A DNA stretch of 64,000 nucleotides from Acidisphaera sp. S103 (GTDB lineage: Bacteria > Pseudomonadota > Alphaproteobacteria > Acetobacterales > Acetobacteraceae): assembly GCF_009765975.1 (NCBI RefSeq), contig NZ_LMUJ01000060.1, forward strand, positions 299,207-363,206, given 5' to 3'. Every line of letters begins with the position of its first letter. Position 1 is the stretch's first letter. Below are positions 1,565-32,007 of the stretch, piece by piece. The position numbers and the translations under genes are program-made. The notes under the pieces were generated by a model. That model did no database searches. It was not told the origin of the DNA and saw only the letters and a program-made list of their open reading frames with translations.

Positions 1565-4500
1565 TCAAGGCCTCGCCGCCCTCCGCACCCTCTTCTCCCG
1601 TTGTGGCTCGCCCCTGCCCTGCTGCCCCAGCATCACAGCCTGCAACGTCAACCGAACCCGAACACGATCGAGTTGCCCGTCGGTCCCAATCAGCGGCGCG
1701 TAGGCGAAATTCCGCCAGACCATGCCGACCCGGTTTTCATCCGGTGCGAAATCGGGGTGAAGGTCGATCACGCCGCCGCTGTTCTCGAACCCGGAACGGC
1801 CGCCCGTTTCGAGATACGTCTCCGCTGGCAATCCCTCCGCCAACACCACATCATGGCTCTCCAATTCAATATGATAATACGTCACGCTCGGCACATCGAT
1901 CTGCGTCACGGTCGAGCCGTTGATCAGGTGCTTGATCGGGATCATGACGTCCTCGATGAACACCGAATGATCGGGTGACAGCAGCAGCGCGCGCCTCGGC
2001 CGGTCCTCACCGAACGCGTGCGGCGCGATGCGGACCGGCTTCACCCGCTCCGGCGCGATGTGGCGGTTGCAGTCCAGGGTGCGCCGGCCGATCCACTGGA
2101 CGGGGCGTGCCTTGCCGGAGACCGTCAGCACCACATCGCCCTCCCGCAGGCGTTCGACCGTGACGGTGCCGCGCGGGGTGGCGATCCGCGTGCCGGCGGC
2201 GAAGCAGGCGATGGAATTCACCGACGTGGTGGTATCGGTCGTCGGGGTGCCGACGATGCCGTCGGTGACCGACAGGGTCATGCCGATGGTGATGGTGCGG
2301 CCGGGGACGACCTGGTCTGGAATGGCGGTGAAGATCAACGCGTCCAGCGCCGTGGTCACCGCACCCGGCGAGCCGGCGGCCAGTGTGTAGATGCCGTTGC
2401 CGATCTTGCTCAATCCGGCGCCGGACAGCGTGCCGTACACGTCCGTCGGCGTGCCGCCATACGTCAACGTGATGGTGACGGTTTCGCTGGCGCCGACGTC
2501 GGGATCGCTGATCGTTACGCCAAAGAACGGCCGGATAGTGGCGTTGTCGCTCATCCTCTGGCCGGCGACGGTGCCGGTGATGACCGGTGGGTCGTTCACG
2601 GCGGTGGCGGTGACGGTCGTGGTGTCGTCGCTGGCGATGCCGCCGGCGGTATCGGTCGCCGCGATGGTGAAGGTTGTGGTGACGGACCCGCCCGGTGCCA
2701 CCTGATGGGCGGTGGGCGTGAAGACCAAGCTGTCCAGGGCGGTGGTGACAGCGGCATCGCTACCGGTGACGCTATAGATGCCGGTGCCGCTGTCGTAGCT
2801 GCCGCCATCCAGGTTCGACAGCGTGCCGTTGGCGTCATTGGACAGGGTGACGGTGACAGTCTCGGTCTGGCCGAAATCGACGTCACTGATGCCGGCGCCG
2901 GAGAACGGATCGATCGTCGCTTCGTCGGTGGTGATCTGGCCGGCGACCGCACCGCTGATGACCGGTTGGTCGTTGACCGCGGTGGCCACCACGCTTGTGG
3001 TGCTGTTGCTGTGGGTACCGCCCGCGGTATCGGTCGCCGCGATGGTAAAGGTGGTGGTGACGGACCCGCCGGGCGCCACCTGGTGAACCGTCGGCGTGAA
3101 CACCAGGCCATCCAGCGCGATGGTGACGGCGCTGTCGCTGCCGGTGACGCTGTAGACGCCGGTAACGCTGTCGTAGCCGCCGCCGCCCAGGTTGGACAGG
3201 GCCCCGTTCGCGGTATCGGACAAGGTGACCGTCACGGTCTCGGTCTGGCCGATATCGACGTCGCTGATGGCCACGCCGGAGAACGGCGACAAGGTGCTTT
3301 CGTCGGTGGTCGTCTGGCCGGCAACGGCCCCGGTGATGGCCGGCGGGTCGTTCACCGCGGTGGCCACCACGCTGGTGCTGCTGTCGGTGGCGCTCTGGCT
3401 CAGGGTGTCGGTGACGGCGAGGGTGAAGCCGGTGGTCACCGTGCCACCAGGCACGACCTGATGGGCGGTCGGGGTGAAGACCAGCGCATCCAGCTCCGCC
3501 GTCACCGCGGTCGGGGACCCGGCCGCCAGCGTGTAGGTGCCGGTGCCGGTCTTGGTCAGGCCGGTGCCCGACAGCGTGCCGTCGGCATCGCTCAGGGTGC
3601 CGCCATTGCTGACGGTGATGGTGATCGTCTCGGTTTGGCCGCTGTTCGGATCGGTGATCGAAACGCCGGAGAACGGATCGATCGTTGCTTCATCCGTGGT
3701 GGCCTGGCCGGCGGCTGTCCCGTCGATCACCGGGGACGGCAGCGAGATATCGAGCGTGGAGGACGCGGCGGCGGAGGTGTCGACTCCGTCGTTGACGGTC
3801 CAACTGATGGTGCGGCTGGGGTCGGTGCCCGCGGCGGTGGGATCGCCGCCGTCCGGCGTGAACGTGTAGGTGATCGAGTCCAGTGCCGTCTGGTAGTCGC
3901 CGATCGTCGCATCGCCGCTGAGGGTCAGCGTGCCGGTGGCGGTGTCGTAGTTGCCGATGATGCCGTTCTGGGTGGTGAAGTTCAGTAGGTCGCCAAGGGT
4001 GAAGCCGTTGCCGATCGACACCGTCGCGGCGTGGACGGTGCCGGTGCTGTCGACGTCGGTGATGGTGACGGCGGAATCCAGCACCGTGGCGGTGCCGTCG
4101 GCGACGTACGCGACCGTCCCGGCGGCGGTGATCGTCGGGCCGACATGGACGGTGTCCAGCGTGCTGGTGCCGGTGCTGCTGACAGCGTTGGTGGTGGCGC
4201 CGTCGGTGACCAGCCAGTCGATGGTGCGGCTGGTATCGCCGCCGCCGCCAGTAGGATCGCCATCGGTGGGGTTGAAACTGTAGGTGACGCTGCGCAGCAC
4301 GTCCTGATAGTCGGTCAGGGTGTCGCTGCCGGTCAGCGTCAGCACGCCGGTCAGGGAGTCGAAGCTGGCGGTGATCGACGTGCCGATCGTGTCGGCCGAT
4401 AGGATGTCGCCCGAGACGAAGCCAGCGATGCTGACCGTGCCGCCGTTCAGCAGGCCACCGCTATCCACGTCGGTCAGCGTCAGGGTGGGATCCAGAGCTA

Positions 4501-7500
4501 CTGAATTGCCGCCGCCGGTGAAGCTGACGGTGCCCTCGGTGGTGATCGTGGGCGCCACGTGTACGGTGTCCAGCGTGCTGGTGGCCAACGGGCTGGAGGC
4601 GGCTCCGTCGTTCACCGTCCAGTTGATGGTGCGCGTGGTGTCGCCGCCGTCCGTCGGATCGCCGTCGGTCGGGTCGAACCCGTAGGTGATCGAGTCGAGC
4701 GCGGCCTGGTAGTCCGCCACCGTCGCCGAACCGGTCAGCGTCAGCGTGCCGGTGGCCGTGTCGAAGTTGCCGATGATGCCGTTCTGGTTACTGAAGTTCA
4801 GCGTGTCGCCGGCCAGGAAGCCGCCGATCGAAACCGTGCCGGCGACCAGGGTGGTGCTGTCCTGATCGGTGATGCTGAGCGTGCTGTCGAGCGTGACCGC
4901 CGGCCCGCCACCGGTGAAGGTAACGGTGCCGCCGGCGGCGATGGTCGGCGGTATCACGAAGCTGATGTCGGTGCCGCCGTCGCCGTCGTTGCCGATCAGG
5001 AAATTGTCGGTGGCGAAGGCGCCCTGGATGTTCAGGCTATCATGGTCGCCCCCGGCATTGGTCAGCACCAGCGTGTTGCTGGCGAATGTCTCGCTGACGG
5101 CGGCGAAGCCGGTCAGGTCGATGGTGTCGCCGAGGGTGAACCCGCCGATCCCAAGCGTACCGAGACCGCCGGGCACATCGTTGCCGGCCACCGTCCACTG
5201 TGCGCCGGCATCGAATACCAGCGAGGTAAAGTTGGTGACCGAAACGCCGAGGCCGGTGATCACGCCGGCGCTCGCGGCGGATGCCAGTTCCAGCGTTGCG
5301 CTGCCGCCGCCGTTGACGGTGCCGGCGAACACCGCACCGGGATCGTCGATCAGCCGAGCGGTACCGCCGGTGAAGCGCAGCGCGACTCCGTCGACGCCTT
5401 GGGTCGATCCGATCGTGCCGGCGTTGGTCACGGTGCCGCCGACGCCGACCAGGACGCCGTCGTAGCCCTGGATCAGTGACCCAGCGCCCAGGTTGCTCAG
5501 GATTCCGGCCGCGCCGATGACGATGCCGTAGTCGCCGGCCGTGCCGCCGGTGCCGATGATGCTGCCGTCATTTTGCAGCGTGCCGGTGGCGGTCAGCGAA
5601 CCGGCATTGGTCAGCGTGACGCCTGTGGCGACGGTGTTGGCGGTGCTGAGCGTCCAACGAGCGCCGGCATCGACGACAACCTGGGCGAAATGGATGAACT
5701 GGGTGCCGAGGCCGCTCAACGTGCCGGCGTCGTCGTTGGGTGCCAGTTCGAGCGTGCTGGCCGCGGTGGCGCCGATGGCGTTGCCGCCGTCGACGAGGCC
5801 GCTGAACACGGCGCCGGGGTCGAACACCAGCCGGTTGGCTGCGCCGGACGCGAATATCACGGCGTTGGTGCCGCCGATGCTGCCTGCGTTCACCACGGTG
5901 GCGCCGCCGGCGGCGAAGACACCGTCAAAGCCGGTGATCACGCCGGTCGTCAGATTGTTGACCGAACCGCCGGCGGCCAGGGAGACGCCTCGGCCGCTGA
6001 TCGTGTTGCCGTAGATACCGCCGGCATTCACCACCGTCGCGGCGCTGGTCTTGCCGTAGACGCCGACGAAACCGGTGACGGTCCCGCCCGACTGGTTGGT
6101 GAAGGACCCGCCGGAGATCAACGCCACGCCGGCCCCGGTGGCCAGCGTCGTGTTGCCGCCGATGGCGCCGGCATTGGTGACCGAACCGCCGGTCACTTCG
6201 ACGGCCTTGAGCCCGGTGATGATGCCGCCGGCCTGGTTGGTGACCGACCCGGTGCTGTTGAAATAGATACCCTCACCGACGGTTAGGTTGCCGTCGATGC
6301 TGCCGGCGTTGATGACGGTAACAGCCGCCTCATCGCCTCGGATGCCATATTGGCCGGTGATCACACCGCCGGACTGGTTGGTGATCGCACCGGCCGTCGC
6401 GATAATAATGCCGAAGCCGGCCGCCGATCCGCCGCTGATGGTGCCGGCGTTGACCACCGTGCCGGCGGCGCCGCCGATGTAGATCCCTTCCCGGCCGGCG
6501 ATGATCTGGCCGCCGGCCAGATTGGTGACCGATCCGCCGTGTCGCAGCGCAATCGCCTCGCCCGTCGAAAGTGACGAGCCGTTGCCGATGCTGCCGGCAT
6601 TCACCACCGTGGCGGGGTCCGTCGAGGCGCGCACGCCGTAAAGGCCGCTGATCGTGCCGCCCGACAGGTTCGTGACAGTTCCGCCCGACGTCAGGAGAAC
6701 GGCGAAGCCCGAGGTGGGGTTGGCGACGATGCTGCCGGTGTTCACCACCGTGGCAGCGGCTCCCTGGCCGTAGATCCCGTATTTGCCGCTGATCGTGCCG
6801 CCCGACTGGTTGGTGACCGATCCGCCGGCGTTGAGCCGGATACCGGCGTTGGTGGCCTCGATGACACCACCGGTGGCGTTGGTGATCGTGCCGGCGGACG
6901 CGAAGCTGATGCCCTGGCTGGCTATGCCGGTTTCGTCGATCAGGCCTTGGTTGACCAGGGTCCAGGTGGTACCGGACGGTCCGATGACCCCGATCCCGCC
7001 GGTGACCGAACCGGTGATGCTGGCAGTGCCGGCGATGGTCGTCGGGTTGGTCAGCAGGGTGACGCTGCTGGTGTAGGTGCCGAACACCGTGGACACGATG
7101 ACGTCGGTGGCGGTGGGGCCGTTCGGCCGCAGGGTGAAGTCGCCGGTGTCCAGCGTGGTGCCCACGGCGATCGTGCCGACCGGACTGGCGCCGGCGAACA
7201 GGGTCATGACGCCGGTGGTGACGGTTTCCGACGTCGCGATGATCCCGACCTCATCGATCGTCTCGCCATACAGCAACGGCGGGGCGCCGAAGGCGATGTC
7301 GGTGCCGCCAGTGCCGTCGCTCGATAGATGGAAATTGCCGCTGACGAAGGCGCCCTCGATGCTCAGCGTGTCGTGCCCGCCGCCGGCATCGGTCAGCACC
7401 AGCGTGTCGCTGGCAAAGGTGCTGCTGACCGCGGCGAATCCCGTCAGGTCGATGGTGTCGCCGAAGGTAAAGCCGCCGATACCCAGCGTACCCAAGCCGG

Positions 7501-10500
7501 CATCCGAATCATCGCCGGCGACGGTCCATTGCGCGCCCGCTTCGAACACCAGCGAGGTGAAATTGGTGACGGTATCGCCGAACCCAGCCAGCGTGCCGGC
7601 GCCGCCCGATCCCAACTCCAGCGTCGTCGTGCCGGCCGCGCTGAGGCTGCCGACGAACACCGCACCCGGTTCTGCGACCAGCAGGTTGGTTCCGCCGGCA
7701 AACTGGATCGCTACGCCGGATGTACCGCCGGTGGATATGATGCTGCCCGCATTCAGCACGAAGGCGTCGGCGTGGGCCTCGATCCCGATTTGCGCTTCGA
7801 TCAGTCCCGCGTTGCCGACCGTCCCGGCACCCACCATGAGGATGCCGTAGTTGCCGTTTCCGCCGCCGGTGTAGGCGATGGAGCCGAAATTGATGACGGT
7901 CCCCGACTCGGTGATGCAGACGCCGACATACGCATCGACCAGCGCGCCGGTCGCCCCGCTCGGTCCGTTGACGAACGCGCCGTTGACCAATGAGACGCCC
8001 TTGCCGCCTGGCGAGTCGATGGTGCCGTAGTTGACGACACTGCCGATTTCACCGGCCGTGCCGGTGGATTGGATTTGGACTCCGTAATTGTACCCTGAAA
8101 TCGATGCCGAACTGGCCGTCCCGCCGGCCTGCCCGTTGATGACGGTGCCGCCGTTCTTCAGGATGACACCGGGGCCATATTCCGAGAATTGGACATGGCC
8201 GAGATTGAGCACGCTGGCGCCGGTGCCATAGATGGCGATCCCGCCGTTGTGGCCGTAGACGACTCCGCCGGCCGCATTGGTGATCGTGCCGCCGCCGGCA
8301 AAGCTGATGCCGTAAGTGCTGGTGCCGGCGTTGTGGATGGTTCCTTCGTTGGTAACGGTCCAGGCGGTGCCAGCCGGTCCGAACAGGCTGGGGACGCCAC
8401 TCACCGTCCCGCTGATACTGGCGGTGCTGGCGATGGTGGTGGGGTTGGTCAGCAGTGTTACGCTGCTGGTGTAGGTGCCGAATATCGTCGACACGATGAC
8501 GTCGGTGCCGCCGGCGCCATCCGATCGAAGGGTGAAGTCGCTGCCGTCCAACGTGCCGCCGACGGCGATTGAGCCGACTGCGGTTCCGCCGCCGTTGAAC
8601 AGCGTCATGACGCCGGCGCTGACCGTTTCGGTCGTCGCGACGACGCCGGTTTCGTCCACGGTCTGGCCATACGCCAGATAGGGTTGCTCAGTAATGTTGG
8701 TGCCGCCATCGTCGTCGTCGGACAAGGCGAAGTTGCCGCTGGCGAAGTTGCCCTGGACGTTCAGCGTGACATGGGCATTGCTGGCGTTGGTCAATACCAG
8801 CGCATTGCTAGCGAAGGTTTCGCTGACCGCGGCGAAGCCGGTCAGGTCGACGGTGTCGCCGAAGGTGAACCCGACGATCGCGCCGGACAGTGCGGTGGTG
8901 GCACTCTGCAGCGTCCACGCCGCACCGGCATCGAAATCGATCGTGCTGAAATTGGTGAAGTTGGTGGCGGCCAAGGTTCCGGCGCTGGCCGCCGAGGCCA
9001 GCTCCAGCGTGCTGCTGCCGCCGATCCGGCCACCGTTGACCGCACCGACGAACACCGCGCCTGGGTCGACGATCAGCCGATCGCCGTTATTGAGTGCCAC
9101 GGCGAATTCGCCGCTGAAAGTGCCGCTGATCGTGCCGGCGTTGACGACGGTGCCCGCGCCCGACATGAGCACGCCCCAGCCGCCCGCGATCGTCCCGGTG
9201 GCGGTGTTGATGACCGTGCCGCCGCCGTCCAATTCGACGCCGACGTCAAACGCCCCATTCGGTTGAGAGGCAATCAGGCCGGCATTGGTGACCGTGCCGG
9301 CGCCGATCTCCATATCTATGGCCCGGTCGGCGGTCGTTCCGGTTGCGGCGATCGTGCCACCCGCCAGGTTCACGATGTCGACGTCAGAACTGTTGTAGAC
9401 TTGGATGCCATATCGGCCGCTGATCACGCCGCCGGCGGCGTTTGTGAGTGCGCCGGACCCGATTTGCGTGTTGCCGCCCAATTGAACGCCATTGGCGCCC
9501 GTGGTGCTGTTGACCGCTCCGTAGTTGGTGACGGTCCAGTTGGTGCCACCGGGGCCATACAACGCGGCTCCCGAGGTGGCGTTGACGGTGGCGCTGCTCG
9601 CGATCGTTGTGGGGTTAGTCAACAGCGTCACGCCGCTGGCATAGGTGCCGAACACGGTGGACACGATGACGTCGGTGCCGCCGGACCCGTCGGGCGCAAG
9701 GGTGAAATCGCTGCTGTTCAAGGTGCCGCCGACGGCAATGGTGCCCACCGCCGTTCCACCGCCGTTGAACAGCGTCATGACGCCGGTGCTGACCGTTTCG
9801 GTCACGGCGACGATGCCGGCTTCATCGATCGTCTGGCCGTAGAGCAGCGGCGCCGTGCCGAAGGCGATGTCGGTGCCGCCGTCGCCATCATTGGAGATAG
9901 CGAAGTTGCCGGTGAGAAGGTTGCCCTGGACGTGCAGCGTCTGGTGCGTGCCGCCGGCGTTCGTCAGTACCAGCGTATTGCTGACGAAGGTTTCGCTGAC
10001 GGCGGCGAAGCCGGTCAGGTCGATGGTGTCGCCGAGGGTGAAGCCGAAGATGGACCCGGACAGTGCTGTGGTCGAACCCTGCACCGTCCATGTCGCGCCG
10101 GTGTCGAAATCGATCGTGCTGAAATTGGTGAAGTTGGTGGTGGACAGGGTTCCGGCGCTGGCCGCCGACGCCAGCTCCAACGTGCTGCTGCCGCCGATCC
10201 AGCCGCCGTTGACCGCACCGGAGAAGACCGCGCCGGGATCGACGATCAGGCGATCGCCGCTACCGAGCGCCACGGCGAATTCGCCGCTGAAAGCGCCGCT
10301 GATCGTGCCGGCGTTGGTGACGGTGCCCGTCCCCGAAACGAGCACACCCCAGCCGCCGGTGATCGTTCCGGTCGCGGTGTTGGTGAGCGAGCCGCCACCA
10401 TCCAGTTCCACGCCGACGTCAAATGCCCCGCCCGTCTGGGAGAGGATCAGGCCGGCGTTGACCACCACGCCCGAGTCGACCTCCATATCGATGGCTCGGT

Positions 10501-12121
10501 CGGCGGTCGCTCCGGCTGCCGCGATCGTGGCGCCTGCCAGGTTGACGATGAGGTCGTTGGTGCCGTTGTACAGCAGCATGCCATATCGGCCGCGAATCAA
10601 GCCACCCGCTTCGTTGGTGATCGTGCTGCCGCCGACCAGCGTGTCGCCGTTGCCCAGTTGAATGCCGTTGGCGTTGGTCGCGCCGTTGACCGAGCCATAG
10701 TTGGTGATGGACCAGTTGGCTCCGCCGGGATTGGACAGGGCCGCACCGGTGGTTGCGCTGACAGACGCGGTGCTGGCGATGGTCGTGGGGTTGGTCAGCA
10801 GCGTCACGCCGGATTCGTAGGTGCCGAAGATCGTGTCCACGATGACGTCGGTGCCGCCCGACCCATCCGATCGGAGCGTGAAATCGCCGGTGGCCAGGCT
10901 GGTGCCGACACTGATGGTGCCGACCGCGGTGCCGCCGGCGTTGAACAAGGTCATGACGCCGGCACTGACGGTTTCGGTCGTCGCGACGATGCCGGTTTCG
11001 TCGATCGTCTGGCCGTAGACCAGGGCGGCGGGCGCGAGCGTGGCGAAGCCGAGGTCGGTACCGCCGTCGCCGTCATTGGCGAGGGTGAAATTGGCGGTGG
11101 CGAACGTGCCCTGCATGTGCAGCGTCACATGGGCGTTGCTGGCGTTGGTCAGCACCAGCGTGTTGGCCGAGAACGTGTCGCTGACCGCGACGAAGCCGCC
11201 CAGATCGATGGTGTCGGTGGCGCCGAAGCCGGTGATCGTCGCCGAGGCGATGGATGTCGTGGCGTTGACCCGCCAGGATGCAGACGGATCGAAGGCGAGG
11301 GTGCCGAAGTTGATGAACTGGGTGCCGATCCCGCTCAGAACACCCTGGCTGACGCTGGAGGCCAGTTCCAGCGTGGCATCAACGGCGGTACCGCCGTTGA
11401 TGGTTCCGACGAAGACCGCGCCGGGGTCGACGATGACCCGGTTCTGGAACCCGGTGGACAGCAACACCGCGTTGCCGGATCCGCCGTCGATCGTTCCGAC
11501 GTTGGTGACCGTGCCAGCGGCGCCATGGATGAATACGCCGTACGGAGGCGCACCGTGGTAAGACTCGGTGGCGCCGTTCGATGAGATCTGACCACCGGCC
11601 AGGTTGGTGACGGTGCCGCCGGCTTGCATATAGACGCCGCCGTACGCGGCGTTACCGAGGATCACGCCGGTGTTGACGAGCGTGCCGGGCGCGAGGCGGA
11701 ACAAAGCGCCGCCGTTTTCCAGCGTGCCGAAGTTGGTGACGAGGCCGCCGTGCCGCATCTCGACGGCGTTGCCCCCTTCGCCGTTGGTTGCATTGGGAGC
11801 GCCGCTGATGGTGCCGTAGTTGGTGACGGTGCCGCTGAAATTGTAGAAATTGACACCGCCCTGAACGGGTTCGGTGGCGGCGATGTATTTTCCCGCCGCG
11901 TTGATGACGCTGCCGCCGGAGCCAGTGATGTAAACCGGGACGTGTTGACCAAAAACGGTGCCGTCGTTGACCAGCGTGTCGTTGTTGCCGCTGACGATGA
12001 AGCCGAAATTGAGGCCACTGGCGCCCGGCTTGCCCTGGACGCCCGTGTTGACCAGCGTGACGCCGGATCCGGTGTAGGTGTAGTAGGAGGAGGTTGAATC
12101 GGGGAGGGTCTTGGTGGTCAT
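1565..12121 (-). CDS. Giant repeat-rich surface-type protein with C-terminal Hint domain (3518 aa)
   Basis: An uninterrupted frame of 3518 codons. Residues about 1-2390 consist of short beta-helix-like repeats (variants of GTVTNAGTISG) grouped into large units that each carry a FGTYxSxVTLLTNPTTIA signature at about residues 429, 822, 1210 and 1676. Residues about 2390-3300 hold seven cadherin/VCBS-like repeats: three of about 135 residues starting PTIxxxGTV, then four of about 125 residues with AGQxTTDEATxxPFSGV and AVNDPP. A Hint_2 domain starts at Cys3306 (CFAAGTRIATP) and contains GDVV, LSPDHSVFIED and HDVVLAEGLPAETYLETG. No Sec signal peptide is visible, so type I or another Sec-independent export is likely (inference). 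A large cell-surface or released adhesin-like protein is the best guess. The start ATG at 12121 has no strong Shine-Dalgarno sequence. Confidence 0.9.
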   Translation of the reverse strand: MTTKTLPDSTSSYYTYTGSGVTLVNTGVQGKPGASGLNFGFIVSGNNDTLVNDGTVFGQHVPVYITGSGGSVINAAGKYIAATEPVQGGVNFYNFSGTVTNYGTISGAPNATNGEGGNAVEMRHGGLVTNFGTLENGGALFRLAPGTLVNTGVILGNAAYGGVYMQAGGTVTNLAGGQISSNGATESYHGAPPYGVFIHGAAGTVTNVGTIDGGSGNAVLLSTGFQNRVIVDPGAVFVGTINGGTAVDATLELASSVSQGVLSGIGTQFINFGTLAFDPSASWRVNATTSIASATITGFGATDTIDLGGFVAVSDTFSANTLVLTNASNAHVTLHMQGTFATANFTLANDGDGGTDLGFATLAPAALVYGQTIDETGIVATTETVSAGVMTLFNAGGTAVGTISVGTSLATGDFTLRSDGSGGTDVIVDTIFGTYESGVTLLTNPTTIASTASVSATTGAALSNPGGANWSITNYGSVNGATNANGIQLGNGDTLVGGSTITNEAGGLIRGRYGMLLYNGTNDLIVNLAGATIAAAGATADRAIDMEVDSGVVVNAGLILSQTGGAFDVGVELDGGGSLTNTATGTITGGWGVLVSGTGTVTNAGTISGAFSGEFAVALGSGDRLIVDPGAVFSGAVNGGWIGGSSTLELASAASAGTLSTTNFTNFSTIDFDTGATWTVQGSTTALSGSIFGFTLGDTIDLTGFAAVSETFVSNTLVLTNAGGTHQTLHVQGNLLTGNFAISNDGDGGTDIAFGTAPLLYGQTIDEAGIVAVTETVSTGVMTLFNGGGTAVGTIAVGGTLNSSDFTLAPDGSGGTDVIVSTVFGTYASGVTLLTNPTTIASSATVNATSGAALYGPGGTNWTVTNYGAVNSTTGANGVQLGGNTQIGSGALTNAAGGVISGRYGIQVYNSSDVDIVNLAGGTIAATGTTADRAIDMEIGAGTVTNAGLIASQPNGAFDVGVELDGGGTVINTATGTIAGGWGVLMSGAGTVVNAGTISGTFSGEFAVALNNGDRLIVDPGAVFVGAVNGGRIGGSSTLELASAASAGTLAATNFTNFSTIDFDAGAAWTLQSATTALSGAIVGFTFGDTVDLTGFAAVSETFASNALVLTNASNAHVTLNVQGNFASGNFALSDDDDGGTNITEQPYLAYGQTVDETGVVATTETVSAGVMTLFNGGGTAVGSIAVGGTLDGSDFTLRSDGAGGTDVIVSTIFGTYTSSVTLLTNPTTIASTASISGTVSGVPSLFGPAGTAWTVTNEGTIHNAGTSTYGISFAGGGTITNAAGGVVYGHNGGIAIYGTGASVLNLGHVQFSEYGPGVILKNGGTVINGQAGGTASSASISGYNYGVQIQSTGTAGEIGSVVNYGTIDSPGGKGVSLVNGAFVNGPSGATGALVDAYVGVCITESGTVINFGSIAYTGGGNGNYGILMVGAGTVGNAGLIEAQIGIEAHADAFVLNAGSIISTGGTSGVAIQFAGGTNLLVAEPGAVFVGSLSAAGTTTLELGSGGAGTLAGFGDTVTNFTSLVFEAGAQWTVAGDDSDAGLGTLGIGGFTFGDTIDLTGFAAVSSTFASDTLVLTDAGGGHDTLSIEGAFVSGNFHLSSDGTGGTDIAFGAPPLLYGETIDEVGIIATSETVTTGVMTLFAGASPVGTIAVGTTLDTGDFTLRPNGPTATDVIVSTVFGTYTSSVTLLTNPTTIAGTASITGSVTGGIGVIGPSGTTWTLVNQGLIDETGIASQGISFASAGTITNATGGVIEATNAGIRLNAGGSVTNQSGGTISGKYGIYGQGAAATVVNTGSIVANPTSGFAVLLTSGGTVTNLSGGTISGLYGVRASTDPATVVNAGSIGNGSSLSTGEAIALRHGGSVTNLAGGQIIAGREGIYIGGAAGTVVNAGTISGGSAAGFGIIIATAGAITNQSGGVITGQYGIRGDEAAVTVINAGSIDGNLTVGEGIYFNSTGSVTNQAGGIITGLKAVEVTGGSVTNAGAIGGNTTLATGAGVALISGGSFTNQSGGTVTGFVGVYGKTSAATVVNAGGIYGNTISGRGVSLAAGGSVNNLTTGVITGFDGVFAAGGATVVNAGSIGGTNAVIFASGAANRLVFDPGAVFSGLVDGGNAIGATAASTLELAPNDDAGTLSGLGTQFIHFAQVVVDAGARWTLSTANTVATGVTLTNAGSLTATGTLQNDGSIIGTGGTAGDYGIVIGAAGILSNLGAGSLIQGYDGVLVGVGGTVTNAGTIGSTQGVDGVALRFTGGTARLIDDPGAVFAGTVNGGGSATLELASAASAGVITGLGVSVTNFTSLVFDAGAQWTVAGNDVPGGLGTLGIGGFTLGDTIDLTGFAAVSETFASNTLVLTNAGGDHDSLNIQGAFATDNFLIGNDGDGGTDISFVIPPTIAAGGTVTFTGGGPAVTLDSTLSITDQDSTTLVAGTVSIGGFLAGDTLNFSNQNGIIGNFDTATGTLTLTGSATVADYQAALDSITYGFDPTDGDPTDGGDTTRTINWTVNDGAASSPLATSTLDTVHVAPTITTEGTVSFTGGGNSVALDPTLTLTDVDSGGLLNGGTVSIAGFVSGDILSADTIGTSITASFDSLTGVLTLTGSDTLTDYQDVLRSVTYSFNPTDGDPTGGGGDTSRTIDWLVTDGATTNAVSSTGTSTLDTVHVGPTITAAGTVAYVADGTATVLDSAVTITDVDSTGTVHAATVSIGNGFTLGDLLNFTTQNGIIGNYDTATGTLTLSGDATIGDYQTALDSITYTFTPDGGDPTAAGTDPSRTISWTVNDGVDTSAAASSTLDISLPSPVIDGTAAGQATTDEATIDPFSGVSITDPNSGQTETITITVSNGGTLSDADGTLSGTGLTKTGTGTYTLAAGSPTAVTAELDALVFTPTAHQVVPGGTVTTGFTLAVTDTLSQSATDSSTSVVATAVNDPPAITGAVAGQTTTDESTLSPFSGVAISDVDIGQTETVTVTLSDTANGALSNLGGGGYDSVTGVYSVTGSDSAVTIALDGLVFTPTVHQVAPGGSVTTTFTIAATDTAGGTHSNSTTSVVATAVNDQPVISGAVAGQITTDEATIDPFSGAGISDVDFGQTETVTVTLSNDANGTLSNLDGGSYDSGTGIYSVTGSDAAVTTALDSLVFTPTAHQVAPGGSVTTTFTIAATDTAGGIASDDTTTVTATAVNDPPVITGTVAGQRMSDNATIRPFFGVTISDPDVGASETVTITLTYGGTPTDVYGTLSGAGLSKIGNGIYTLAAGSPGAVTTALDALIFTAIPDQVVPGRTITIGMTLSVTDGIVGTPTTDTTTSVNSIACFAAGTRIATPRGTVTVERLREGDVVLTVSGKARPVQWIGRRTLDCNRHIAPERVKPVRIAPHAFGEDRPRRALLLSPDHSVFIEDVMIPIKHLINGSTVTQIDVPSVTYYHIELESHDVVLAEGLPAETYLETGGRSGFENSGGVIDLHPDFAPDENRVGMVWRNFAYAPLIGTDGQLDRVRVRLTLQAVMLGQQGRGEPQREKRVRRAARP
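2207..4960 (-). repeat. Cadherin/VCBS-like repeat block of the giant protein
   Basis: Coding repeats inside the giant gene. Reading on the minus strand, three units start near 4955, 4550 and 4140 (each with a TLTxTG... DYQxALDSITYxF core and a WTVNDG-type end). Four more start near 3735, 3340, 2960 and 2590 (each with VxxPFSGVxISD, LDxLVFTPTxHQV and a closing AVNDPP). The repeats end just before the Hint domain. Unit boundaries are approximate. Such Ca2+-binding Ig-like repeats are common in bacterial adhesins exported by type I systems. Confidence 0.75.
7090..10850 (-). repeat. Tandem macro-repeats of about 1.2 kb in the beta-helix region
   Basis: Large in-frame tandem units begin at FGTYxSxVTLLTNPTTIA signatures whose codons lie near 10835, 9656, 8491 and 7093. 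The first two units (about 393 and 388 residues) match closely along their length, including RAIDMEx, VGVELDGGG, FSGEFAVAL, GDRLIVDPGAVF, SSTLELASAASAGTL and GDTIDLTGFAAVSETF. The third unit shares the ends but has a different centre, which suggests duplication followed by divergence or exchange of the middle. Confidence 0.75.
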
Positions 12122-27846: not shown

Positions 27847-28779
27847 CTAAATCACCCGATTCAGCAGCGGATCGCCGGAGGCGACCCGACGGCAATTCTC
27901 TGCCGCAAGCAGAAAACTGCGATCGAACGTCCCGGTCGTCAGCCAGCCGACATGCGGCGTCACCACGACATTCGGCAGCAGCAGGACCGGGTCGCCGGCG
28001 GGCAGCGGTTCGGTCTCAAAAACATCCAGGCCAGCACCGGCGATCCGGCCGGACGACAAGGCGGCGACCAGCGCCGCCGGATCGACCAGGCCTCCGCGTC
28101 CGGTATTGATCAGAATGGCGCCGGGTTTCATGCGTCCCAGTGCCTCGGCATCAATCACATGTTCGGTTTCCGGCACCAGCGGCAGATGCAGGCTGACGAC
28201 GTCAGCCTCCACCAGAAGCTGATCCAGCGTCCGGTAGGCAGCGACCGGATCGTCCACCCGGGTGCGCGCCGTGTAGATCACCCGGCACCCCATCGCCGCC
28301 AGGATCGGCGCCAAAATCCGAGGGATCGCCCCGAACCCGACCAGCCCTACCGTCCGTCCGCCCAATTCACCAAGGCCGTCCTGCATGGCGACGTCCGTCC
28401 ACGTACCCGCCCGCAACCCCCGATCGAAGCTGGCGATGCGCCGCAGCACCGACAGCATCAAACCCAGCGCCAGCTCCGCGACAGCCCGAGCGTTGGTCCC
28501 GGGCAGGTTACAGACGGGAATCCCCCGTTGCTTCGCCGCCTCCAGGTCGATCGTGTTCACGCCCACCCCGATCTTCTGGATCAGCTTCAGCCCGGGAGCC
28601 GCCGCGATCATCTCGGCGGTGCAGCGTTGCAGCACGTGCCAGAGAACGTCGCAGTTCGGCAGCAACCGGAACAGCGCATCGGTATCGTCTTCCCGGCACA
28701 CCGACACATCAAGACCGGGCAGCCGAAACAGCCGGCCCGCCAGATCAGGTCCGGCGGAGGCGTGGAAGACGACCTTCAT
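27847..28779 (-). CDS. D-isomer-specific 2-hydroxyacid dehydrogenase
   Basis: 310 residues. The NAD(P)-binding domain carries GRTVGLVGFGAIPRILAP. The catalytic triad is visible as Arg in INTGRGGLVD, Glu in DVFETEPLP and His in VVTPHVGW. The family reduces 2-keto acids such as glyoxylate, hydroxypyruvate or phosphoglycerate-related substrates. Its ATG overlaps the stop of the enolase-like gene by four bases (ATGA), so it is the last gene of a three-gene operon with a kinase and an enolase paralogue. A hydroxypyruvate/glycerate role fits that company but is an inference. Confidence 0.92.
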   Translation of the reverse strand: MKVVFHASAGPDLAGRLFRLPGLDVSVCREDDTDALFRLLPNCDVLWHVLQRCTAEMIAAAPGLKLIQKIGVGVNTIDLEAAKQRGIPVCNLPGTNARAVAELALGLMLSVLRRIASFDRGLRAGTWTDVAMQDGLGELGGRTVGLVGFGAIPRILAPILAAMGCRVIYTARTRVDDPVAAYRTLDQLLVEADVVSLHLPLVPETEHVIDAEALGRMKPGAILINTGRGGLVDPAALVAALSSGRIAGAGLDVFETEPLPAGDPVLLLPNVVVTPHVGWLTTGTFDRSFLLAAENCRRVASGDPLLNRVI

Positions 28780-30065
28780 CCGGCGGATCGCCCCAACACC
28801 GACCCACCGGCAAACTTCGCCTTGCCGCCCAGCGCTTCCTCGATCCGCAGCATCTCATTCCACTTGGCCATGCGCTCGCCGCGCGTAAAACTGCCCACTT
28901 TCAACTGCCCGGCGGTCCAGCCGACGGCGAGGTGCGCGATCGTCACATCCTCCGTCTCCCCAGACCGGGCCGACACGATCATCGCATAGCCGCACTCCGC
29001 CGCCGCCCGCCTGGCATCGTACGTCTCGGTCAGGGTGCCGCGCTGGTTGGGCTTCAGTAGCACCGTGTTGGCCGCGCTCTTGGCCGCCGCATCGCGCACC
29101 CGGTCCGCATCGCTGACCAAAAAATCGTCGCCGACGATCTGCACCTTGCCACCGACCGCGCGCGAGAACGCGACGAACCCGTCCAAATCGTCTTCCGCCA
29201 GCGGGTCCTCGATCGACAGGATCGGATATCGCCCGATCCACCCGGTCAGCAGGTCTATCATGCCCTCGGTGCTCAGGTCCTTGCCATCCAGCGCCAGTTT
29301 GTAGCGGCCTTTCCCGCCGAATTCCGACGCCGCGATATCCAGCGCGATACCGACCTGCTCGCCCGGCCGGAATCCGGCTTTCTCGATCGCCGAGACCAGC
29401 GTGTCCAACGCCTGTTCGTTGCTGGAAAACGACGGCCACCAGCCACCCTCATCGGCGACCCCTGCCAGGCTGCCAGCCGCTTCCATCAGTTTGCCGGCGG
29501 CACGATAGACCTCGGCCGTCCAATCCAGCGCCTGGGCAAACGTCTCGGCCGCCGGGCACATGATCATGAAGTCCTGGATGTCGACCCGTCGGCCCGCATG
29601 CGCGCCGCCGCCGAAGATCTGGATCTGCGGCAACGGGATCAGCGTCGCGTCCACCCCGCCCAGATGGCGATACAGCGGTTCCCCGAGCGCCCCGGCCGCG
29701 GCGTGCGCAACCGCCATCGACACCGACAGCGTCGCATTCGCCCCGAGGCGGGTCTTGTTCCGCGTGCCATCCAGCTCGATCAGGCGCTCGTCCAGCGCTT
29801 CCTGGTCCGCCGCATCCATGCCGGCGACGGCCCGGGCGATGATCGTGTTCACGTTGCCCACGGCCTTGGTGACGTCGTAGCCGCCAAACGCCGTCCCGCC
29901 ATCGCGCAGATCGAGTGCCTCACCCGATCCCGTCGAGGCGCCGGCAGGCGCGATCGCCCGTCCCACCGCGCCGCCTTCCAGCAGCACGTCCGCCTCGACC
30001 GTCGGGCGTCCGCGGCTATCCCACACCCTGCGGGCATGCACGTAGGCGATCGTCGTATCGGTCAT
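28776..30065 (-). CDS. Divergent enolase paralogue (enolase superfamily)
   Basis: 429 residues aligning by eye along the whole of enolase: VWDSRGRPTVEADVLLEGG, APAGASTGSGEALDLRDG, and the metal ligands Asp in ALDIAASEF, Glu in SIEDPLAEDD and Asp in IVGDDFLV. Lys338 (LLKPNQRGTLTET) and Lys389 (QLKVGS) are kept, as is His156. Two conserved active-site positions differ: the SHRSGE histidine is Ala366 (SARSGETED), and the IQEFM glutamate is Asp165 (IQDFMI). The loop usually reading NGGxHA is IFGGGAHAGRR. It therefore probably acts on a PEP- or 2-phosphoglycerate-like substrate rather than as the housekeeping enolase. It overlaps both neighbours by four bases. Confidence 0.85.
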   Translation of the reverse strand: MTDTTIAYVHARRVWDSRGRPTVEADVLLEGGAVGRAIAPAGASTGSGEALDLRDGGTAFGGYDVTKAVGNVNTIIARAVAGMDAADQEALDERLIELDGTRNKTRLGANATLSVSMAVAHAAAGALGEPLYRHLGGVDATLIPLPQIQIFGGGAHAGRRVDIQDFMIMCPAAETFAQALDWTAEVYRAAGKLMEAAGSLAGVADEGGWWPSFSSNEQALDTLVSAIEKAGFRPGEQVGIALDIAASEFGGKGRYKLALDGKDLSTEGMIDLLTGWIGRYPILSIEDPLAEDDLDGFVAFSRAVGGKVQIVGDDFLVSDADRVRDAAAKSAANTVLLKPNQRGTLTETYDARRAAAECGYAMIVSARSGETEDVTIAHLAVGWTAGQLKVGSFTRGERMAKWNEMLRIEEALGGKAKFAGGSVLGRSAG

Positions 30066-31063
30066 GCGGCAATTTCCTCTTTCCAGGTTCGGGCTACATC
30101 GGCCAGCCGATCGGGCGGATCGGCCAACAGGCGGCGCGCGACCACACGCACCCTGTCACGGTCAGCCTCCCGCGTAATGTACTCGACCGGCGACTTCCCA
30201 TCCACCCGAGCCAAAAACAATGCCGGCAGCAGATGCGCTGTTCGGGTTTCCAGGGCAGCCGCCGGTTCCCACCCGACGAGCGGCAGGTACGTCACCGTCA
30301 TTGCCCGAAAACTGTCCAACAGGCCCCCCCGAACGGCCGGCACCCAAACGCACTTCAGCATCAGATGGTTCAGGCAAAACGCCAGGTCGAACGCCGGATC
30401 ACCCCACCACGCGCATTCGGCATCAAGGAACACGGGACCATCCGGCCCGCACAGAATGTTCTTCGGGCTGACATCGCCATGCACCAACGCGCGCTTGTTG
30501 CGCTGAGTCGTCTCGATCAGCCGTTGCATCCGGTCCGCCAGGTCGGGGTGCGCCCGCCCGGTCTGCGTCAGATACGGTTCCAACCTGATGTCGTGGAAAA
30601 TCCCATCGGTCGGAAACGCCGCCGCCAACGACGGATCCACCGCCGTCGCCGCATGGATCCGCCCCAGTGTACGGGCGACCGAGGCCGCGAAGCCGACGTC
30701 CACCACGCCGTCCCGCAACTGCGCTTTCCAAAGCGGATATCGCTCCGCCGGCAGATATTCCATCGCCAGCGTGCCCGTCACCTCATCCTGCCCCAACAGT
30801 GTGGGTGAGGCACCTGGCACCACCGCGTTGGCAACCCGCATCCAGCGCGCCTCGTAGAGGTTGCGTTCCACCGGCGCCTGCCAGTCGGCGTTGACCCGCA
30901 GCTTCGCCAGCGCCCGCTTGATGCAAATTGGCCCGCCTGGCAGGTCGATCCGCCAGATGTCGGACGACACGCCACCGGTCAGCGGTTGCCCGCGCGGATC
31001 AGCACCTTTCAGCAGGTGCATCCGATCCAGCGCGTCGATGATGTCCTTGGGTGGCGTTTCCAT
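30062..31063 (-). CDS. Aminoglycoside phosphotransferase-fold small-molecule kinase
   Basis: 333 residues from ATG 31063 (METPPKDIIDALDRMHLLKG); the frame stays open upstream to 31237 but that extension looks noncoding. The kinase features are GGVSSDIWRIDLPGGPICIKRAL for nucleotide binding, Brenner motif HGDVSPKNIL and the metal-binding LDAECAWWGDPAFDLAF. The family phosphorylates hydroxyl groups of antibiotics, choline, thio-sugars or organic acids. Here it heads an operon with an enolase paralogue and a 2-hydroxyacid dehydrogenase, so a hydroxy-acid or polyol substrate is more likely than an antibiotic (inference). The stop overlaps the enolase-like start by four bases. Confidence 0.82.
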   Translation of the reverse strand: METPPKDIIDALDRMHLLKGADPRGQPLTGGVSSDIWRIDLPGGPICIKRALAKLRVNADWQAPVERNLYEARWMRVANAVVPGASPTLLGQDEVTGTLAMEYLPAERYPLWKAQLRDGVVDVGFAASVARTLGRIHAATAVDPSLAAAFPTDGIFHDIRLEPYLTQTGRAHPDLADRMQRLIETTQRNKRALVHGDVSPKNILCGPDGPVFLDAECAWWGDPAFDLAFCLNHLMLKCVWVPAVRGGLLDSFRAMTVTYLPLVGWEPAAALETRTAHLLPALFLARVDGKSPVEYITREADRDRVRVVARRLLADPPDRLADVARTWKEEIAA

Positions 31064-31221: not shown

Positions 31222-32007
31222 GTGGTGCCATTGGCATCGCCCCGCCGGCGCTTTCTGTCGATTGCGGTCTTGCTGTCTGTCGGCCTTCATCTCGTGGCCG
31301 CGCTTCTTATTGTATTCCTGCCGCGCGTGTTGCCGCGAGAAGCGGCGCCAACGGAACGGGGCACCGTCGAACTGGTGATGGTGAAGCGAGAAGGCGTCGG
31401 CGCCAGCGTTGCGGGCTCGCCGATCGATCGCCAGCCGACGCCCGTAGAGAAAGCGGAGACGCCGAAGACCGAGGCACCGAAAGCGGAACCGCAAACGGTC
31501 GCGACACCGGCACCAAAGGTCACTCCGGCGCTGCCGGTCACCGAGCATGGTAACGAAACGGTACCTCCACCGGCCAAACAGCCGCCATCACAGCCAGCCA
31601 AGGTAGACCCCCGCCCCACCCCGAAACCGATCGAGGCGCAACCGACGCCACCACCACCGCAGGAAGCGCCCGTCTTCGACCTCACGAGCACCGAAAGCGG
31701 AACTGACCCGCTCGCGATGGGCCTGGGCATTCTGCCGGCCTCGCCTGATGACAGGTTCCAGAACAGGCCGCCGACCTACCCGATCGAAGCACAACTGCAC
31801 AACGAGCACGGTTCGGTGGTCGTCGTAATCCACGTGTCGGAAAATGGCTTCGCCACCGGTGTCGATGTGCAGCAAAGCTCGGGGGTGGACCAACTGGATC
31901 AGGCCGCCGTCGCCGCGGTCCGCAAATGGCACTTCCACCCGGCGATGAAGGACGGGCACGCCGTCCCGTTCGATTTTCCGTTCGAGTTCATTTTCGAACC
32001 CCGTTAA
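31222..32007 (+). CDS. TonB-like energy-transducing protein
   Basis: 261 residues from a GTG start at 31222 (GTG 31225 or TTG 31231 are possible). One membrane helix near residues 11-33 (LSIAVLLSVGLHLVAALLIVFLP) is followed by a Pro/Lys/Glu-rich periplasm-spanning linker (about 60-155). The C-terminal TonB fold includes NRPPTYPIEAQLHNEHGSVVV, the SGVDQLDQAAVAAVRKWHFHPA segment and VPFDFPFEF. It would couple the proton motive force to an outer-membrane transporter; no ExbB/ExbD or receptor gene lies in the window. Confidence 0.87.
   Translation: MVPLASPRRRFLSIAVLLSVGLHLVAALLIVFLPRVLPREAAPTERGTVELVMVKREGVGASVAGSPIDRQPTPVEKAETPKTEAPKAEPQTVATPAPKVTPALPVTEHGNETVPPPAKQPPSQPAKVDPRPTPKPIEAQPTPPPPQEAPVFDLTSTESGTDPLAMGLGILPASPDDRFQNRPPTYPIEAQLHNEHGSVVVVIHVSENGFATGVDVQQSSGVDQLDQAAVAAVRKWHFHPAMKDGHAVPFDFPFEFIFEPR

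Follow-up and report, generated by a model that had tools for sequence, protein, structure and literature searches.

In the serine cycle, hydroxypyruvate reductase, glycerate 2-kinase, enolase and phosphoenolpyruvate (PEP) carboxylase make up one segment. Enolase proper is, to our knowledge, commonly treated as a single-function enzyme; in the yeast enzyme Glu168, Glu211 and His373 lie at the C3 hydroxyl, and mutants in these residues are poorly active. Plasmid-borne tartrate clusters share reactions with the serine cycle, and kinases specific for D-glycerate show a side activity of 13–34 % on L-glycerate, according to PMC2063504. For the ttu cluster of an Agrobacterium vitis plasmid, passages of that paper liken TtuD to class II glycerate kinase and mention no dedicated enolase paralogue. 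Here, we describe a three-gene operon coding for a kinase, an enolase paralogue with an altered active site and a 2-hydroxyacid dehydrogenase, located in a 64,000-nucleotide stretch of Acidisphaera sp. S103 (contig NZ_LMUJ01000060.1, positions 299,207 to 363,206; hereafter the window). The module is real, conserved and patchily distributed, and contains what its sequence indicates to be a specialized enolase paralogue, with an activity that is predicted.

All three genes lie on the minus strand of the window. KIN (30062..31063, start at 31063) codes for a predicted APH-fold small-molecule kinase of 333 aa, as judged from Pfam, an HGD motif and the predicted fold; ENOL (28776..30065) for an enolase paralogue of 429 aa, assigned by Pfam, alignment and tree; and DH (27847..28779) for a putative D-isomer-specific 2-hydroxyacid dehydrogenase of 310 aa, assigned by Pfam and its catalytic positions. 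The Pfam matches were APH for KIN, Enolase_N and Enolase_C for ENOL, and 2-Hacid_dh and 2-Hacid_dh_C for DH, which also carried Arg, Glu and His at the positions known as catalytic in its family; its NAD motif reads GFGAIP and has lost the third Gly, a replacement shared by several other members. A longer in-frame start of KIN exists at 31237, while most relatives have approximately 310–350 aa. The four-base overlaps reported in a preliminary description of this DNA are present at both junctions, as one ATGA shared by the kinase stop and the enolase start (30062..30065) and another shared by the enolase stop and the dehydrogenase start (28776..28779), and they suggest that the genes may be translationally coupled. 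That description had placed the three overlapping genes at 28776–31063; the genes are there as described, but the dehydrogenase (27847–28779) falls outside the interval. A pseudogene or chance open reading frame (ORF) was ruled out by the kept catalytic set and the family-wide conservation.

ENOL retained the metal ligands Asp243, Glu286 and Asp313, as well as Ser44, Lys338 (codon 29052..29054) and Lys389, and carried Asp165 (codon 29571..29573) and Ala366 (codon 28968..28970) in place of the Glu of QEF and the His of SHRSGE. In yeast enolase numbering we take these positions to be the catalytic base Lys345 for Lys338, Glu168 for Asp165 and His373 for Ala366. To define a family, we took from 145 full-length enolase-like rows of the fetched loci the 113 proteins of at least 380 aa with Ala366; the remaining rows had His (31 rows representing 30 distinct genes, the enolase of the window's genome appearing twice, at L002 and L123) or Gly (one, L089). 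Asp165 was present in 113/113 paralogues, a conservation that is not circular, unlike that of Ala366, the residue by which the set was chosen; 80 of the loci are the best 80 of at least 445 confirmed relatives from one scan, and near relatives are over-represented. Across the set the metal ligands and Lys338 were kept in 113/113, the loop serine and Lys389 in 112 each, with one gap in each case, and His156, Gln164, Arg367 and Ser368 in 113/113 each, bearing out the earlier claim that both replacements occur in an enolase with its metal ligands and lysines intact. All 30 distinct canonical enolases (31 rows) had His and Glu at the two positions, and the L089 relative had Gly366 with Asp165. From the alignment, Asp165 and Ala366 are signatures of this family.

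In a tree built by a quick method, with the signature columns kept in and L089 not counted, paralogues and canonical enolases fell on the two sides of a single branch (SH-aLRT 100); the eight paralogues nearest the canonical side came from Rhodococcus, Sphingobium, Methylobacterium nodulans, Embleya and haloarchaea. ENOL shares with canonical enolase (TIGR01060) the domains, the metal ligands, both lysines and the phosphate and carboxylate contacts, and is 47 % identical to the enolase of its own genome; it differs by Asp for Glu168 and Ala for His373, by its place on a separate supported branch, by its partner kinase and by its patchy occurrence. It passed the NCBIfam phosphopyruvate hydratase equivalog cut-off (505.9 versus 300 bits), but because it lacks the His and Glu of the C3-hydroxyl site we did not file it as a functional enolase. 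The separate canonical gene for which the preliminary description had called was found at G000:C40:66093–67352, with His and Glu at the signature positions, which rules out ENOL as the sole enolase of the genome. A canonical enolase was found in 60/60 genomes, and all 15 other genomes with the kinase had a canonical-range match (47–49 % identity, the class being assigned by identity), 14 of them together with a paralogue. Taken together, these comparisons support a specialized enolase paralogue that would work with the kinase, and its substrate is likely to be other than 2-phosphoglycerate.

The kinase was the most constant partner of the paralogue. Counting kinases of at least 280 aa and leaving shorter ones out, we found one in 107 of the 113 paralogue loci; four of the other six had kinase fragments, either broken or at a contig end (L012, L023, L029 and L030), and two had none in the stretch (L032 and L067). 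Kinases without a full-length Ala366 paralogue occurred at L112, L117 (contig end) and L089 (Gly366). The L112 gene (9576–10574, 48 % identity) is the kinase homologue of genome G038. Among the 107 loci, the kinase was directly upstream of the paralogue (within 150 nt) in 89, directly downstream in 3 and apart or on the other strand in 15, and 75 of the 92 adjacent same-strand pairs overlapped by exactly four bases. The distance matrices of the two proteins correlated with r = 0.84, a value reached in 0 of 1000 permutations, although shared ancestry inflates it and can explain part of it. A reductase within 1.5 kb of the module was a D-2-hydroxyacid dehydrogenase of the CtBP type in 59 of the 113 loci and of the unrelated PanE type in 14, never both, and was missing in 40, some of which are contig ends (e.g. 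L003); the haloarchaeal locus L090 has a CtBP-type gene farther away. The constant unit is therefore kinase plus paralogue, with a third gene that varies: of the trio put forward initially, the first two genes hold together, while the dehydrogenase is variable and gives way to a PanE-type reductase in 14/113 loci. Since two unrelated ketoacid-reductase families occupy the same slot, it is the chemistry of the slot, the reduction of a 2-keto acid, that this pattern suggests to be what matters.

KIN carried the His-Gly-Asp motif of the catalytic loop at residues 195–197 (30473..30481, minus strand), and this motif and the C-terminal residues of an R-DGKSPVEY block were conserved across 35 aligned kinases. 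Its domain matches were to APH, EcKL and fructosamine-kinase models only, and its structure was predicted with a mean pLDDT of 95.6. APH domain, HGD motif and kinase fold together place it among the APH-fold small-molecule kinases. The closest solved fold was 5-methylthioribose kinase (Foldseek E 6.4e-17, TM 0.82 on the query), with which it shares the APH fold at 16 % identity; its score against the NCBIfam MTRK model (40.3 bits) was far below the cut-off of 275, and this likeness of a modelled structure does not appear to identify the acceptor. An antibiotic-resistance kinase was rejected on the grounds that the APH label holds at the level of fold, the closest fold is methylthioribose kinase and most annotated neighbourhoods are catabolic. 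A Pfam scan of KIN detected no MOFRL domain, which is found in a separate gene of the same genome (G000:C101).

A link to PEP carboxylase came from a Rhizobium-type genus, where the kinase was present in 14 of 100 genomes (E ≤ 1e-40). PEP carboxylase was found in 13, all among these 14 and approximately 1 kb from the kinase, and in 0 of the 86 genomes lacking it (Fisher 2e-15, relatedness ignored). On two annotated plasmids of this type the PEP carboxylase, dehydrogenase and kinase genes follow in this order on the same strand; the paralogue lies a few genes away in the opposite orientation. A Cupriavidus plasmid cluster (L094) has a PEP-carboxylase-like gene, 50 % identical, labelled by BLAST. 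Neither the window nor L033, whose neighbours were read by eye, has an evident phosphatase or aldolase gene near the operon, which suggests that its product is used directly. Because PEP carboxylase in the Rhizobium-type sample occurs only in genomes with the kinase, and beside it, we consider that there is moderate evidence for PEP as the predicted product of the paralogue.

A reductase, a kinase, an enolase-type gene and PEP carboxylase stand together in the Rhizobium-type clusters and, by BLAST label, in the one Cupriavidus cluster; the genome of the window has no PEP carboxylase match. The module shares with the serine-cycle segment the reaction types, the D-2-hydroxyacid dehydrogenase family and, in those clusters, the accompanying PEP carboxylase; it differs in having an APH-fold rather than a MOFRL kinase and a dedicated, altered enolase, and in that the Rhizobium-type and Cupriavidus clusters sit amid aromatic- or sugar-type catabolic genes. 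The operon had been presented as a mini-pathway without described precedent. The proposed reactions resemble those of a known pathway; what sets the module apart is its kinase family and its enolase active site. A literature search by titles and abstract openings, with subscription journals mostly outside its reach, found no published description of this gene set among the papers listed, and a search by terms of the main text of a 2022 PLoS Genetics gap-filling paper (PMC9007349) gave no match.

Neighbouring genes were labelled by BLAST against a hand-labelled set (record annotation and Pfam, and by eye for PdxA-like and PLP-type genes). Loci of Rhizobium, Burkholderiales, Cupriavidus, Rhodococcus and Sphingobium contained a homoprotocatechuate-dioxygenase-like VOC enzyme, a cupin, a carboxymuconolactone-decarboxylase-like gene, a zinc alcohol dehydrogenase and a fumarylacetoacetate-hydrolase (FAH)-like gene, not every gene being present at each locus. 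A VOC enzyme of this kind, with an identity of at least 58 %, is encoded on 15 plasmid records. The kinase is present on 14 of them, and the fifteenth, CP003955.1, belongs to Rhodococcus opacus PD630, a strain whose kinase is encoded on a different record. Conversely, some kinase plasmids, for example those of Paracoccus, Roseibium and Methylobacterium, fall outside this group of 15. The relatives listed next after this VOC subfamily (L087:16151–17152 and relatives) drop to 46 %. The upstream substrate could not be read from the extradiol-type dioxygenase clusters. An annotated S-(hydroxymethyl)glutathione synthase (L155:3719–4291) near the cluster of Rhizobium sp. N324 hints at formaldehyde release. 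Paracoccus/Roseibium-type loci combined a LacI regulator, kinase, paralogue, FAH and a short-chain dehydrogenase/reductase (SDR), mostly with a sugar ABC transporter; the FAH and SDR could release pyruvate and a C3 acid. Haloarchaeal plasmids had mandelate-racemase-type genes, an SDR, a cupin and a ketol-acid reductoisomerase homologue. In Acetobacteraceae/Limnohabitans-type loci the reductase, kinase and paralogue operon stood nearly alone, some loci having GMC oxidoreductase, SBD_N/NBD_C kinase and PdxA-like genes nearby. Across these contexts, the diagnostic positions 149, 152, 165, 204 and 366 were identical in the sugar-, PanE-, trio- and molybdo-oxidoreductase-type groups and in 14/17 dioxygenase-type rows, in a comparison that took in 64 of the 113 rows, as might be expected for one small shared intermediate.

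A diverged cluster on an Enterobacter chuandaensis plasmid (L089:7196–16645) codes for an enolase relative with Gly366, Asp165 and Lys replacing Glu206, and for a kinase. Next to them are genes for a 2-hydroxyacid dehydrogenase and a class I/II aminotransferase, one for a haem-oxygenase-like enzyme and one with a weak match to U32 peptidase, and from its genes the whole looks like a small biosynthetic cluster. This kinase and enolase relative were present on two Enterobacter plasmids.

The module was found in 10 of 397 genomes of the window's phylum, its own included (E ≤ 1e-30, genomes at least 90 % complete), and in 27 of 33 genomes of its own genus (E ≤ 0.001), one match being partial. The kinase occurred on 32 of 72,556 plasmid records, Rhodococcus and haloarchaea among them (E ≤ 1e-20, down to 34 % identity, where the weakest matches may be other kinases). 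Phage carriage was rejected, as a comparison with 50,697 phage records gave no match at E 1e-10. From this distribution the module looks accessory and horizontally spread. In the enolase tree, some record titles of metagenome-assembled genomes seem unfit: the title of L035 reads Akkermansia muciniphila but its place is with Limnohabitans, and two records under the name Asaia bogorensis, L006 and L007, are intermixed with genomes from the genus of the window.

From the gene order, family membership, signature residues, co-occurrence and, in one genus, the linkage to PEP carboxylase, we propose a model whose reactions, order, substrate and stereochemistry are all predicted. We give a probability of roughly 0.4 to the reading that this is a horizontally spread catabolic end-module carrying out reduction where needed, O2-phosphorylation and dehydration to PEP of a substrate that is not D-2-phosphoglycerate. 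The reductase, of either type and where present, would make or interconvert a 2-hydroxy acid; the kinase would use ATP to phosphorylate the 2-hydroxyl of a small 2,3-dihydroxy acid; and the paralogue would remove water to give PEP, leading straight into central metabolism. In the Rhizobium-type clusters, and probably in the Cupriavidus cluster, the PEP would be carboxylated by the co-encoded PEP carboxylase. The paralogue would keep the metal, carboxylate and phosphate contacts and the lysines, with the surroundings of C3 and of the leaving hydroxyl re-shaped (Glu168 to Asp and His373 to Ala, yeast numbering) because its proposed substrate is not D-2-phosphoglycerate.

If PEP is the product, the substrate should be D-2-phosphoglycerate or its L enantiomer, which the preliminary description had not considered, or else the leaving group is not water. 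The window's genome has a MOFRL glycerate kinase, and the total among kinase genomes is 10 of 15; since this kinase makes D-2-phosphoglycerate and canonical enolase uses it, a dedicated pair for D-glycerate would be redundant in these genomes. This redundancy, and the replacement of just those two residues that should matter, favour the L over the D form, so that L-glycerate is our leading guess for the substrate, with a putative route from L-glycerate through L-2-phosphoglycerate to PEP. The fuller proposal remains tentative and rather doubtful: a mirror-image branch of lower glycolysis, shared as an end-module by several catabolic pathways across bacteria and haloarchaea, in which the kinase would make L-2-phosphoglycerate and an enolase whose proton-abstraction geometry is altered by the Glu168 to Asp and His373 to Ala changes would dehydrate the L-isomer to PEP.

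Several observations weigh against the end-module reading or its L-glycerate form. No reductase lies within 1.5 kb in the 40 loci mentioned, which are partly contig ends, and in genome G038 a homologue of the kinase occurs with an enolase of the canonical range but no paralogue. The PEP carboxylase link holds in two lineages only, one of them by BLAST label; in the Rhizobium-type genus G468 has the kinase without PEP carboxylase and the G163 match is partial, and of 12 kinase genomes, 2 had PEP carboxylase within the cluster and 4 at another site, while 6, the window's genome included, lacked it. Positions 149 and 152 differ in the 3 haloarchaeal and 3 of the 17 dioxygenase-type rows, so a single common substrate is not certain. 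In 5 of the 15 kinase genomes the MOFRL kinase, the only glycerate kinase family sought, is absent, and there the redundancy argument fails. Both the CtBP-type and the PanE-type reductases belong to (R)-specific families, from which products of D configuration would be expected; the lysine base, which is kept, would fit the (2R) face or isomer. Every enzyme activity of the module, moreover, is a prediction. The MOFRL gaps, the (R)-specific reductases and the (2R)-fitting lysine together would lead to a normal C2 with a change at C3, as in a C3-substituted acid, or to an unchanged substrate.

A C3-substituted substrate, such as erythronate, threonate, 2,3-dihydroxybutanoate or another 2,3-dihydroxy acid of four or more carbons, would make of reductase, kinase and paralogue an ATP-dependent dihydroxy-acid dehydratase whose product, a substituted PEP, amounts to a 3-deoxy-2-keto acid. 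The two changed residues contact the C3 hydroxyl in yeast enolase, the change of His to Ala makes room, and the other first-shell residues that we checked are kept, presumably along with the C2 geometry. The neighbourhoods agree in part: an SBD_N/NBD_C gene, which we take to be DUF1537 and whose domains are those of four-carbon acid-sugar kinases, is near the module in L006 (assigned by Pfam), L015, L019, L066, L118 and L119, a PdxA-like gene, identified by eye, in all of these except L006, and an annotated ketol-acid reductoisomerase in three haloarchaeal plasmids. The diverged Enterobacter cluster, in which kinase and enolase relatives accompany a 2-hydroxyacid dehydrogenase and an aminotransferase, would also fit, and the S-(hydroxymethyl)glutathione synthase near one Rhizobium cluster could handle formaldehyde from such a route. 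However, the PEP carboxylase linkage in the Rhizobium-type genus and the standalone operons with no evident phosphatase or aldolase fit PEP better, and we regard a C3-substituted substrate as rather unlikely.

We judge it improbable that the substrate is unchanged and the module is an isozyme set, that is, a serine-cycle segment built from other protein families and running from hydroxypyruvate through D-glycerate and D-2-phosphoglycerate to PEP, with an enolase variant that still uses D-2-phosphoglycerate. The Rhizobium-type plasmids do hold the reductase, kinase, enolase and PEP carboxylase of that segment (the enolase gene on the other strand), and the (R)-specificity of both reductase families, the score of ENOL above the equivalog cut-off and the five genomes without a MOFRL kinase are all in keeping with it. 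These points are set against the invariant replacement of two residues needed for the dehydration of D-2-phosphoglycerate, in a genome that already has both a canonical enolase and a MOFRL glycerate kinase. A different reaction of the paralogue, with another leaving group or as a hydration in the biosynthetic direction, or a regulatory or binding role, is very improbable, as the metal ligands and lysines are kept and the annotated neighbourhoods are mostly of catabolic type, the diverged relative with Gly366, Asp165 and Lys for Glu206 in its biosynthetic-looking cluster being what speaks for it. A sulfolactate route with sulfite as the leaving group is weakly excluded, no sulfite-handling gene having been noticed and no search having been aimed at one.

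In the window itself the operon is surrounded by unrelated genes. Upstream and divergent are a TonB-like gene and a cobalamin adenosyltransferase gene, and downstream is a response-regulator GGDEF gene. The host genome comprises 8.37 Mb in 116 contigs, and its ENOL is closest to Rhodopila sequences. Elsewhere in the window, an ORF of 3518 aa lies on the minus strand at 1565–12121.

Taken together, certain soil- and plant-associated microbes have, besides the normal glycolytic enolase, a second, altered one with its own kinase and often a reductase, and this set looks like a so far undescribed way of bringing an unusual hydroxy acid into central metabolism. If the end-module reading is correct, the enolase subgroup would have a second function, carried by a widespread clade with two invariant active-site changes, a dedicated kinase and, in one genus, a dedicated PEP carboxylase; were the L-glycerate route also true, this would be an enzyme of the enolase subgroup proper with another substrate. 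Public records name these paralogues phosphopyruvate hydratase or enolase, and metabolic models are misled when the genes are counted as glycolytic enolase. For several unassigned catabolic clusters of rhizobia, Burkholderiales, Rhodococcus and haloarchaea, the module would also supply the final step that is missing.

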